Source: an uncultured Acidobacteriota bacterium (lineage in GTDB: Bacteria > Acidobacteriota > Polarisedimenticolia > Polarisedimenticolales > Polarisedimenticolaceae). From it: a stretch of DNA of 56,223 nucleotides. Below are positions 31,186 to 32,934 of this stretch, one piece after another. Position 1 is the stretch's first letter. Every line of letters begins with the position of its first letter. The stretch is from NCBI GenBank assembly GCA_945787955.1, contig CALZKF010000002.1:1-56223 (forward strand). Reading direction: 5' to 3'. A program made the translations under genes and the position numbers. The notes under the pieces were generated by a model. The model had not been told where the DNA came from, ran no database searches, and saw nothing but the letters and a program-made list of their open reading frames with translations.

Positions 31186-31304
31186 AGCAGACGAAAACGG
31201 AGCGCAAGTCCACACCGGCCCGAGGCCGATATAGAAACCCTGCTTTCGGTTTATATTCGCCTTATCGACACTTGATTATTGCCCGGAACTAAAAACAATT
31301 TACC

Positions 31305-31333
31305 TTGACAGCTTTCTGACGCCTCCTTATTAT
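31305..31333 (+). promoter_or_regulatory. Sigma70-type promoter of the dcw cluster (mraZ promoter)
   Basis: A perfect TTGACA (31305-31310), a 17-bp spacer and TATTAT (31328-31333, 5 of 6) form the best sigma70 promoter in the window. It lies in the 303-bp gap 31186-31488 before mraZ. The predicted start is near 31340, leaving a leader of about 150 nt. Confidence 0.82.
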
Positions 31334-31340
31334 TCCAAGG

Positions 31341-31375
31341 TGGTCGAAAATGGAGTGAAGTGGACCCAACGGGAA
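31341..31375 (+). promoter_or_regulatory. Predicted MraZ operator: four TGG-type boxes at 10-bp spacing
   Basis: Boxes TGGTC (31341), TGGAG (31351), TGGAC (31361) and GGGAA (31371) are each separated by exactly 5 bases. In E. coli MraZ binds repeats of TGGGN with 5-nt spacers in its own leader. The position immediately downstream of the -10 element, at the predicted transcription start, fits an autorepressor site for the mraZ product encoded here. The boxes keep TGG but not the third G, so this is a family-based prediction. Confidence 0.6.
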
Positions 31376-31488
31376 TCTTCAACCTCCAATTACGGGCGGC
31401 GACAGGGCACGGGAACCGGCAGGCTCAGGCCTCCGATCATAACCGGTTTCAAATCCCCTGCCGGCTCCCATCGGACCGGGCGGGCGGA

Positions 31489-31929
31489 ATGCTTCGAGGG
31501 AATTTTCTAGCCAAGGTGGATGACAAGGGCAGGCTCAAGCTCCCTTCCAAGTTCCGGTCGATCATCGAACCGAGATTTGGCCGGGAATTCTTCGTGACCA
31601 GCCTCACCGGCGAATCGATCCGGATCTATCCCATGGAGATCTGGGTCGACATCGAACAGAACCTCTCCGCTTCCTCGGGGTTCAAACCGGCTATTGTCCG
31701 GTTCAAGAACAGGGTGAACTACTTCGGCCAGGTGGCGAACATGGATTCCCAGGGTCGAGTCCTGCTGCACCCCCTGGTGCGGGACAAAGCCGATGTTTGC
31801 GGCGAGGTCGCCGTCCTGGGCCAGCAGAATTTCCTCGAGGTCTGGAACCACAGCCAACTGGAAAAGAAGCTGGAAGCCGAGCCGCTCACCGAAACCGACT
31901 TCGACAATCTGGCCGATCTCGGCATTTAG
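31489..31929 (+). CDS. mraZ: MraZ, transcriptional regulator of the dcw cluster
   Basis: A 146-residue protein made of two AbrB/SpoVT-like beta folds carrying the family motif DxxxR twice: VDDKGRLKLP near residue 10 and MDSQGRVLLHP near 87. MraZ forms ring-shaped oligomers that bind tandem boxes in its own promoter region; such boxes are present at 31341-31375. I chose ATG 31489 because LRGNFLAKVDDKGRLKLPSK is the conserved beginning. An upstream GTG at 31360 would add 43 residues foreign to the family. It is the first gene of the dcw operon, 15 bp before rsmH. Confidence 0.95.
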   Translation: MLRGNFLAKVDDKGRLKLPSKFRSIIEPRFGREFFVTSLTGESIRIYPMEIWVDIEQNLSASSGFKPAIVRFKNRVNYFGQVANMDSQGRVLLHPLVRDKADVCGEVAVLGQQNFLEVWNHSQLEKKLEAEPLTETDFDNLADLGI

Positions 31930-31944
31930 GAGTCGATTCGAATC

Positions 31945-32934
31945 GTGTCGGTATCGATTCTTTACAGCGGAGGCGCTGAGACTATCTTGACGCCCAAAGT
32001 GAATCCGCATCGTCCTGTCCTCCTGAAGGAGGTCGTGGAATTCCTGCGGCCGAAACCGGGCGACACAATTGTGGACGCCACTCTGGGCGCCGGCGGCCAC
32101 GCCGAAGCCCTTCTGGACCGTTTGGGAGAAGACGGCCGGCTGATCGGCATCGACCGGGACCGGTCGGCGCTGGAGATCGCAACAGAAAGACTCAGTGACT
32201 TCGGGCAACGCTTCGTCCCCGTTCACGGCGCCTACGAGGATCTCACCGAAATCCTCAGGGCTCAGGACGCATTTGCCGTAGACGGCATCCTGGCCGACCT
32301 GGGCGTCTCTTCCATTCAGCTCGATTCGGCTGAACGCGGTTTCTCCTTCCGTTTTGACGGTCCCCTGGACATGCGTATGGACCGCTCCCGCGGCATCACC
32401 GCCGCCGAGCTGCTGGAGACGATCTCGCTGAACGAGCTCACACGGGATCTGAGGGTATATGGCGAGGAACGGCTGGCGCGCCGTATCGCACGGGCGATCA
32501 TCGAACGGCGGGAGAAGCGCCCGATCCGGACGACCCTGGAGCTGGCCGGCCTGGTGGTGGAGGCTGCCGGTCCCCGGGCCCGGCAGTATCGCATCCACCC
32601 TGCCACCCGAACCTTCCAGGCCCTGCGCATCCGGGTCAACGGGGAACTCGAAGGGATCGAACGGTTCATCACAGACGCCGTTTCCATGTTGCGCAAAGGA
32701 GCCCGGATCGCGGTGATCTCGTTCCACTCGCTTGAAGACCGGGCGGTAAAACTGGCGTTCAGATCTCTGGCCAACCGCTGTACCTGTCCAAGAGATCTCC
32801 CGGTCTGCGCCTGCGGCAGGGAAAACTTCCTGAAAGTGATCACCGGCAGGCCCCGGACTCCTCTGGATGAAGAGATCCATGCCAATCCCCGGGCACGGAG
32901 CGCCAAACTGCGCGTTGGGGAGAAGATCGGATGA
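31945..32934 (+). CDS. rsmH: 16S rRNA (cytosine-1402 N4)-methyltransferase RsmH (MraW)
   Basis: A 329-residue SAM-dependent methyltransferase. NPHRPVLLKEVVEFL opens the family, the SAM loop is DATLGAGGHAEALL, and GILADLGVSSIQLD, RGFSFRFDGPLDMRMD and VISFHSLEDRAVK are all conserved. It methylates C1402 of 16S rRNA and stands second in most dcw clusters. The GTG at 31945 is preceded by AGGAG at a rather long 12 bases. A TTG at 31987 (after GGAGG) is an alternative that would remove 14 poorly conserved residues. ftsL overlaps its end by four bases. Confidence 0.95.
   Translation: MSVSILYSGGAETILTPKVNPHRPVLLKEVVEFLRPKPGDTIVDATLGAGGHAEALLDRLGEDGRLIGIDRDRSALEIATERLSDFGQRFVPVHGAYEDLTEILRAQDAFAVDGILADLGVSSIQLDSAERGFSFRFDGPLDMRMDRSRGITAAELLETISLNELTRDLRVYGEERLARRIARAIIERREKRPIRTTLELAGLVVEAAGPRARQYRIHPATRTFQALRIRVNGELEGIERFITDAVSMLRKGARIAVISFHSLEDRAVKLAFRSLANRCTCPRDLPVCACGRENFLKVITGRPRTPLDEEIHANPRARSAKLRVGEKIG

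Follow-up and report, generated by a model that had tools for sequence, protein, structure and literature searches.

The window analysed here is a stretch of 56,223 nucleotides from an acidobacterial draft genome; a relative from the same genus, Candidatus Polarisedimenticola svalbardensis, has an MraZ that is 94% identical. On its forward strand an mraZ gene is located at 31489..31929, encoding a predicted autorepressor of 146 aa. The ORF that follows (31945..32934, forward strand) is presumably rsmH (mraW), with which the dcw cluster would continue, and further ORFs beyond it are taken to be of the dcw type; these names were derived from sequence and gene order. In annotated records, rsmH comes after mraZ. 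Upstream of mraZ lies a near-consensus promoter, TTGACA-17-TATTAT (31305-31333, 11/12 matches), whose -35 element is found at 31305..31310 and whose -10 element is found at 31328..31333, both on the forward strand. TTGAC of the -35 element is kept in 10/10 aligned order-level leaders including that of the window. Two promoter-like sites were found in the 1.3-kb region, compared to a mean of 0.2 in shuffles; the second promoter-like match (9/12) is at 31961-31988, near the start of the rsmH frame. The mraZ frame is open in 5' direction up to a GTG at 31360 (189 aa), which lies within the third of the boxes described below, and the family match begins at 31489. The mraZ leader also contains an inverted repeat of 13 nt (92% complementary, arms 31411-31423 and 31457-31469), which was rejected as an element because its leader sequence cannot be aligned across the order. 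A leader RNA element was rejected as well, since Rfam gave no match up to E 5 for 31200-32000 and the folding z-score was +0.80. tRNA genes were not found in the window.

An array of repeats starts 6 nt past the -10 element and reads GTGGTCGAAA, ATGGAGTGAA and GTGGACCCAA, then CGGGAATCTT. The first three are (G/A)TGG boxes in exact 10-bp spacing on the forward strand, with GTGG in boxes 1 and 3 and ATGG in box 2. We predict them to be MraZ boxes, with box 1 (31340..31349) at the predicted transcription start, followed by box 2 (31350..31359) and box 3 (31360..31369). A possible degenerate fourth box at 31370..31379 (forward strand) lacks the T. The sequence-only reading had placed TGGTC, TGGAG, TGGAC and GGGAA at 31341, 31351, 31361 and 31371, in 10-nt phase behind the TTGACA-17-TATTAT promoter, and these letters as well as the promoter were confirmed. 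When both strands of the 56 kb were scanned for TGG-N7-TGG-N7-TGG-N7-GGG, this site was the single match; the shuffle mean was 0.04, and 4/100 shuffles had a match. Direct repeats with a TG(G) core, three or more in number, are thus present in the window at 10-bp period, positioned after the -10 element and over the start of the mraZ promoter as predicted from the promoter consensus, and they are conserved in the mraZ leaders of relatives. MraZ operators of the E. coli type have TGGG in every repeat, as is also seen in the E. coli leader here; boxes 1-3 of the window read TGGT, TGGA and TGGA and do not share this feature. A wider regulon was considered and rejected: three exact matches to three RTGGH units at period 10 were found in the genome of the window (87% complete), compared to one match to the reversed control pattern, and the two matches outside the array are located inside ORFs (262 aa; 316 aa plus 218 aa on the opposite strand). 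Therefore, we claim no further MraZ target, which fits a local autoregulation of the cluster.

The presence of phased TGG boxes in relatives, which the sequence-only reading had named as a check, was examined and the boxes proved to be strongly conserved in order-level, class-level and wider sets of leaders. Three exact [GA]TGG units were present in 10/10 order-level leaders and, at period 10, in 34/38 class-level leaders, the window being included in both counts. The four class-level leaders outside this count are L030, which has just 55 nt upstream, and L022, L028 and L039 with one altered unit each. In the alignment of the ten order-level leaders only the -35 element, the -10 element and the three boxes were conserved, and the next ~ 100–125 nt were unalignable. 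Among 153 leaders with at least 200 nt, arrays with a score of at least 12 were detected in 111 at period 10 and in none at periods 7, 8, 9 and 11–14, on the reverse strand or in shuffles. The spacing from GTGG to GTGG in 319 mraZ leaders amounted to 10 nt in 373 cases, to 9 nt in one, to 11 nt in three and to 20 nt in 42 cases. With an anchored finder, arrays were found in 164 of 213 leaders, compared to 7.6 expected from shuffles, and a promoter-like pair was located upstream of 122 of the 164 arrays. The gap between the -10 element and box 1 was most often 4 or 6 nt (4–7 nt in 76 of the 122), and the distance from the array to the start codon ranged from about 30 to more than 180 nt. Since the first distance is narrow and the second variable, the array is tied to the promoter and not to the start codon.

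The same leaders bear on the number of boxes. Among 171 exact three-box arrays, 166 could be scored in the next downstream register, which contained GG in 62/166 (3–28 of 159–171 at neighbouring downstream offsets) and TGG in 41/166 (0–5 at neighbouring downstream offsets); the register upstream of the array was not enriched (14/171). A fourth box is thus an optional part of the operator in the family of MraZ leaders, and the view that it is a chance match was rejected on these counts. It is doubtful that the operator consists of four equivalent boxes reaching to 31375, as had been proposed from the letters. It would agree with the enrichment of the fourth register in the family, with a 4-box complex of M. 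genitalium MraZ that is known by the title of the structure, and with the four repeats of B. cenocepacia given in the accessible part of PMC7761207, but the fourth copy in the window has neither T2 nor G1, and among order-level leaders the fourth register has GG in 5/10 and TGG in only 1/10 (L007). This one leader, from the sister genome, has ATGGGA where the window has CGGGAA, with a 1-nt indel between them at this place. The fourth copy of the window may be a decayed or weak box, and of the four boxes originally proposed the three solid ones stand, being beyond chance and conserved.

MraZ is a ring-forming protein. Support for ring formation is also found in the accessible part of PMC7761207. 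The MraZ of the window matched PF02381 twice over the cut-off, with one match in each half (32.9 and 27.2 bits), and both halves of this MraZ/SpoVT-AbrB protein have a D-x-x-G-R motif (D11-R15 and D86-R90). The pseudo-repeat reads G4...D11-x-K13-G-R15 in the first and G80...D86-x-Q88-G-R90 in the second half; Lys13 of the first loop (DDKGR) is encoded by AAG at 31525..31527 and Gln88 of the second loop (DSQGR) by CAG at 31750..31752, both on the forward strand. The AlphaFold model had a mean pLDDT of 89.8 and matched solved MraZ structures, including MraZ-promoter complexes, with Z 17.5–19.4, and together with the PF02381 matches this fold match confirmed the assignment of the gene as mraZ made from the letters. 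In the model, residues 13 and 88 lie in matching loops, between the strands 2–10/15–17 and 81–85/90–92. MraZ has likely been lost in nine genomes of genus g62 (family f30) and three of genus g92 (family f40), which are 97–100% complete and gave neither a PF02381 match nor a match to an MraZ protein.

The MraZ operator of E. coli was reportedly described by Eraso et al. in 2014. In the E. coli leader analysed here, GTGGGAAATT GTGGGGCAAA GTGGGAATAA follow straight after the -10 element, and like the window this mraZ leader has three 10-bp-phased GTGG boxes at this place and is followed by mraZ and then rsmH, so that the comparison with E. coli drawn in the sequence-only reading is borne out in phase and place. 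Unlike the window, which has GTGGTC/ATGGAG/GTGGAC together with Lys13 and Gln88, E. coli has GTGGGA/GTGGGG/GTGGGA together with Lys13 and Ala88, and box 1 lies 44 nt before the start codon compared to 149 nt in the window. The MraZ site of the Mollicutes is given as (AAAGTGKN3)3 in the accessible part of PMC5282649, which cites Fisunov et al. 2016, and, as described there, resembles the window in having three 10-bp repeats, a GTG core and A's ahead of the core, but its fourth core letter is G or T, and the loops in the aligned PDB sequences are DNKNR and DSANR. For B. cenocepacia, the accessible part of PMC7761207 describes four repeats of 7 nt, separated by 3-nt spacers and hence of the same period, that cover the start site, and a gel shift by MraZ of a fragment containing them; like the boxes of the window, the repeats of PmraBc are located past the -10 element and overlap the start site (a predicted one in the window), but they are four in number, and the relative B. 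stagnalis (L208) has GTGG, then GTGT. The MraZ-promoter complexes of M. genitalium, 9r4j and 9sz7 (known by title), align with the window MraZ over 138 residues (Z 17.5 and 18.5, rmsd 3.1 and 2.8), but the identity is 23%.

A sorting of the leaders according to the letters of their boxes drew attention to the residue that precedes GR in each DxXGR loop. The arrays were located by a finder that is letter-agnostic apart from GG, required at positions 3–4 of a 10-nt period, with the first G of a run preferred at position 3. Leaders were sampled from 179 genomes with MraZ, of which the crowded genera g55, g60 and g89 were thinned, and 20 loci of a plasmid collection were taken from overlapping match sets of 31 and 37 records, without the entries for E. 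coli and Klebsiella, repeat copies of a species and further Sinorhizobium records. From 216 genes, three with less than 100 nt upstream and 49 without an array at score 10 were set aside; the 164 arrays kept (153 acidobacterial, 11 from other phyla) fall into 92 clusters when grouped at 70% identity. Fragments that lack a start, three in all, were excluded, and residue 88 of L210 gave no reliable reading. By cluster, G at box position 1 (G1) was found in 73/77 with Lys13 and in 0/15 with another residue 13, and G at box position 5 (G5) in 4/75 with Gln88 and in 12/12 with Ala, Ser or Lys at residue 88. All four combinations exist. With Lys13 and Gln88, G1 was present in 64/68 and G5 absent in 64/68; with Lys13 and Ala/Ser/Lys88 both letters were present in 4/4; without Lys13, Gln88 went with neither letter in 7/7 and Ala/Ser/Lys88 with G5 only in 8/8. 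After mixed clusters were split, other residues at 13 had G1 in 1/16 and Ala/Ser/Lys88 had G5 in 13/13. The picture was the same at 50% identity (23 clusters; Lys13 with G1 17/18, other residues with G1 0/7, Gln88 with G5 1/15, Ala/Ser/Lys88 with G5 7/7) and by gene (136/141, 1/23, 4/138 and 21/21, respectively).

In an unbiased scan of 146 protein columns, residue 13 ranked first for box position 1 (0.294 bits, next column 0.078) and residue 88 for position 5 (0.165 bits, next 0.080); with one gene per cluster, residue 13 gave 0.298 (next 0.080) and residue 88 gave 0.162 (next 0.098). The all-column maximum over 200 shuffles was 0.089. Residue 88 was also top for A at position 6 (0.126 bits, next 0.061), whereas G at position 6 was tied to other columns, G80 being first (0.077). 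A Pagel-type test of correlated evolution, run with our own script on a quick protein tree, linked residue 88 with G5 (LR 40.4, p 3.5e-8) and residue 13 with G1 (LR 34.1, p 7.1e-7), and the crossed pairs gave p 0.023 and 0.12. The stricter comparison of independent pairs on well-supported branches only, whose contrasts are too few for adequate power, agreed in 3.4/5 and 3.7/6 and opposed in 0 cases (p at least 0.125). In a control for GC content the pattern at position 5 held in AT-rich, middle and GC-rich leaders, and that at position 1 in the AT-rich and middle strata, the GC-rich stratum being without clusters that lack Lys13. For GGG boxes, the register rule of the finder (first G at position 3) underlies part of the signal at position 5. 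A code by the single residue at protein position 5 (MLRG-X) was rejected because His5 was found with both box types.

We fixed the rule in writing ahead of retrieving the held-out genomes, the finder was left unchanged, and no held-out gene came from a genome used previously. The held-out genomes were found by searches with two proteins of rare type and are, therefore, enriched in rare types. Among 103 new genes, 75 had arrays and 28 had none. Lys13 went with G1 in 60/62 and other residues lacked G1 in 13/13; Gln88 lacked G5 in 59/61 and Ala/Ser/Lys88 had G5 in 8/11. The misses in the last group comprise L235 and L237, whose GGGA boxes look like one-base slips of the finder, and L309 (Lys13, Ser88), a plain counterexample. 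L280 combines Lys13 with Lys88, a combination that the first set lacked, and has GTGGGA three times, as predicted by the rule. Both letters were as predicted in 33 of the 36 new arrays that are less than 70% identical to earlier genes; the other three comprise one Lys13/Gln88 gene with G5, one gene with Lys13 and Ala/Ser/Lys88 without G5 and one with a residue 88 outside the rule. Some of the 28 genes without an array (two-box GGGA; TAGG-type with Gln13) fit the rule by eye and were not counted. The covariation and the held-out test support the suggestion, made from the letters of the window, of a lineage-specific recognition code. The relaxed TGG(A/T) core on which this suggestion was built is present, but the core is GTGG and includes the letter before TGG, and TGG(A/T) is no trait of this genome but the usual form in acidobacterial leaders with a Gln88 MraZ.

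Together, the sequence comparisons suggest a code in which Lys at residue 13 specifies G at position 1, Gln, Ser, Ala, Thr and Gly specify A/T/C and Arg mostly A, and in which Gln at residue 88 specifies mostly A/T/C at position 5 and Ala, Ser and Lys specify G. Lys13 plus Gln88 in the window then leads to GTGG(A/T), and Lys13 plus Ala88 in E. coli to GTGGG. The code is probably factorised, with the residue of the first loop setting position 1 and that of the second loop position 5, so that the two ends could be re-specified separately and tandem paralogues may use separate spellings. Exceptions to G1 with Lys13 are L039, L050 (where the finder slipped by one base), L088, L111 and L218 and, in the held-out set, L269 and L343; with Arg13, L087 has G1 and the other genes mostly have A1. 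Gln88 is found together with G5 in L048, L052, L194, L196, L259 and L329 and, by eye, in L050 and in the MFKG paralogues of L053 and L054, which shows that other residues matter too. Among the exceptions from f6 (L048, L050 and L052), W79 and E82 are seen repeatedly, and residues besides 13 and 88, perhaps 79–82, may contribute to the spelling of the boxes.

The set from outside the Acidobacteriota comprised 21 records including E. coli, of which 11 had arrays at threshold and 10 had none. With Ala88, E. coli has the boxes given above and Proteus has GTGGGG/GTGGGA/GTGGTG; below threshold, GTGGGG is present twice in Neisseria, and in Burkholderia a GTGG box is followed by GTGT. With Asn88, Aeromonas has GTGGAG/GTGGAT/GTGGTT and Bacteroides GTGGAA/GTGGGG/GTGGGG; below threshold, Phocaeicola has two GTGGGG boxes and Legionella is mixed. 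In six arrays of Bacillota and Actinomycetota with Gln88 the fifth letters are mixed and position 6 is often G, L194 and L196 counting as G5, which demonstrates that Gln88 is not sufficient everywhere. Upstream of the alphaproteobacterial Glu88 genes L205, L206, L207 and L213 no recognisable 10-bp array was found; if these genes have an operator, it differs in form.

Most likely, the repeats past the promoter are where the repressor encoded in the cluster itself docks, and we read 31340-31369, perhaps extending to 31379, as an operator of the autorepressor MraZ whose ends are read by the loop residues 13 and 88, with a probability of about 85%. By homology, we infer that MraZ would bind here and repress its own promoter. 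In the proposed mechanism, successive subunits of the ring protein, each made of two pseudo-repeated SpoVT/AbrB-like halves, would line up on one face of the DNA, each on the next 10-bp box. Lys13, at the tip of the first DxXGR loop of a subunit, would read the 5' end of the box (G1), and Gln88, at the tip of the second loop, the 3' end at position 5 and, more weakly, at position 6, and the central TGG would be read by parts common to all MraZ proteins; one subunit per box and direct base contacts are predictions of this model. Lineages that change residue 13 or 88 would then tend to change the matching letter of the box. Since the boxes lie over the predicted transcription start, bound MraZ would bar RNA polymerase from the mraZ promoter and tune the whole division and cell-wall cluster.

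A real MraZ operator could also have acquired its link between residue and letter by shared ancestry, with spelling and loop residues drifting by lineage. Indeed, box type clusters on the protein tree (7 changes compared to 26.6 in shuffles), many columns differ between box types, and only 2–6 independent contrasts are available on well-supported branches. Ancestry as the sole cause of the link is, nevertheless, unlikely: at the box position that it is matched with, residue 13 exceeds the next column by a factor of 3.8 and residue 88 by a factor of 2.1 (1.7 when each cluster is represented by one gene); the Pagel-type test, which takes the tree into account, found the matched pairs far stronger than the crossed ones; both residues are located at the tips of matching loops in the model, and the new combination in L280 obeys the rule.

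Two further explanations would dispense with MraZ altogether. A G-rich motif downstream of the mraZ promoter of S. aureus forms a parallel quadruplex according to the accessible part of PMC11796246, and with this precedent the four GG runs within 33 nt of the window could be taken as a G-quadruplex in promoter or leader. We consider this very improbable because a quadruplex needs G runs only and neither a 10-nt period nor T before GG nor a spelling that tracks MraZ, whereas a spacing of 10 nt (373 compared to 1 at 9 and 3 at 11 nt) points to helical phase as the selected trait; the loops would, moreover, be 7–8 nt long and the tracts would have two G's each. Still more remote is a bend of the start region caused by phased A-rich DNA that has no cognate protein: the units do end with AAA, GAA and CAA one helical turn apart, but the conserved letters are GTGG, and the other two three-box matches of the genome sit inside ORFs.

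With MraZ as its probable reader, the feature in the window is most likely an MraZ operator of the ordinary kind, here in a new lineage, and it is the recognition code that seems to be new; no statement of a two-residue code was found in the open-licence literature searched, including the accessible parts of PMC8475190, PMC7761207, PMC5138195, PMC5282649, PMC11796246 and PMC5089854. If the code holds, the operator spelling of the division cluster would be largely predictable from two mraZ codons. In very many bacteria MraZ stands first in the division and cell-wall cluster, and its sites have so far been described per species (TGGG, GTGK, here GTGG(A/T)). With a two-residue rule, many of these consensus differences would fall under one scheme, operators could be read from genomes without experiments, and clean swaps would address base choice by the double AbrB-like fold. 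Reading by MraZ would also offer an alternative for G-rich mraZ leaders taken as G-quadruplexes. Tandem mraZ paralogues, two each, were observed in L053, L054, L055, L257, L259 and L290, with own leaders and GTGG-type repeats. In L053 and L054 the upstream copy (MFKGKYIY) has GTGGGG/GTGGGA and the downstream copy (MLTGNFP) has GTGGAC twice, and these paralogues may be separately controlled.
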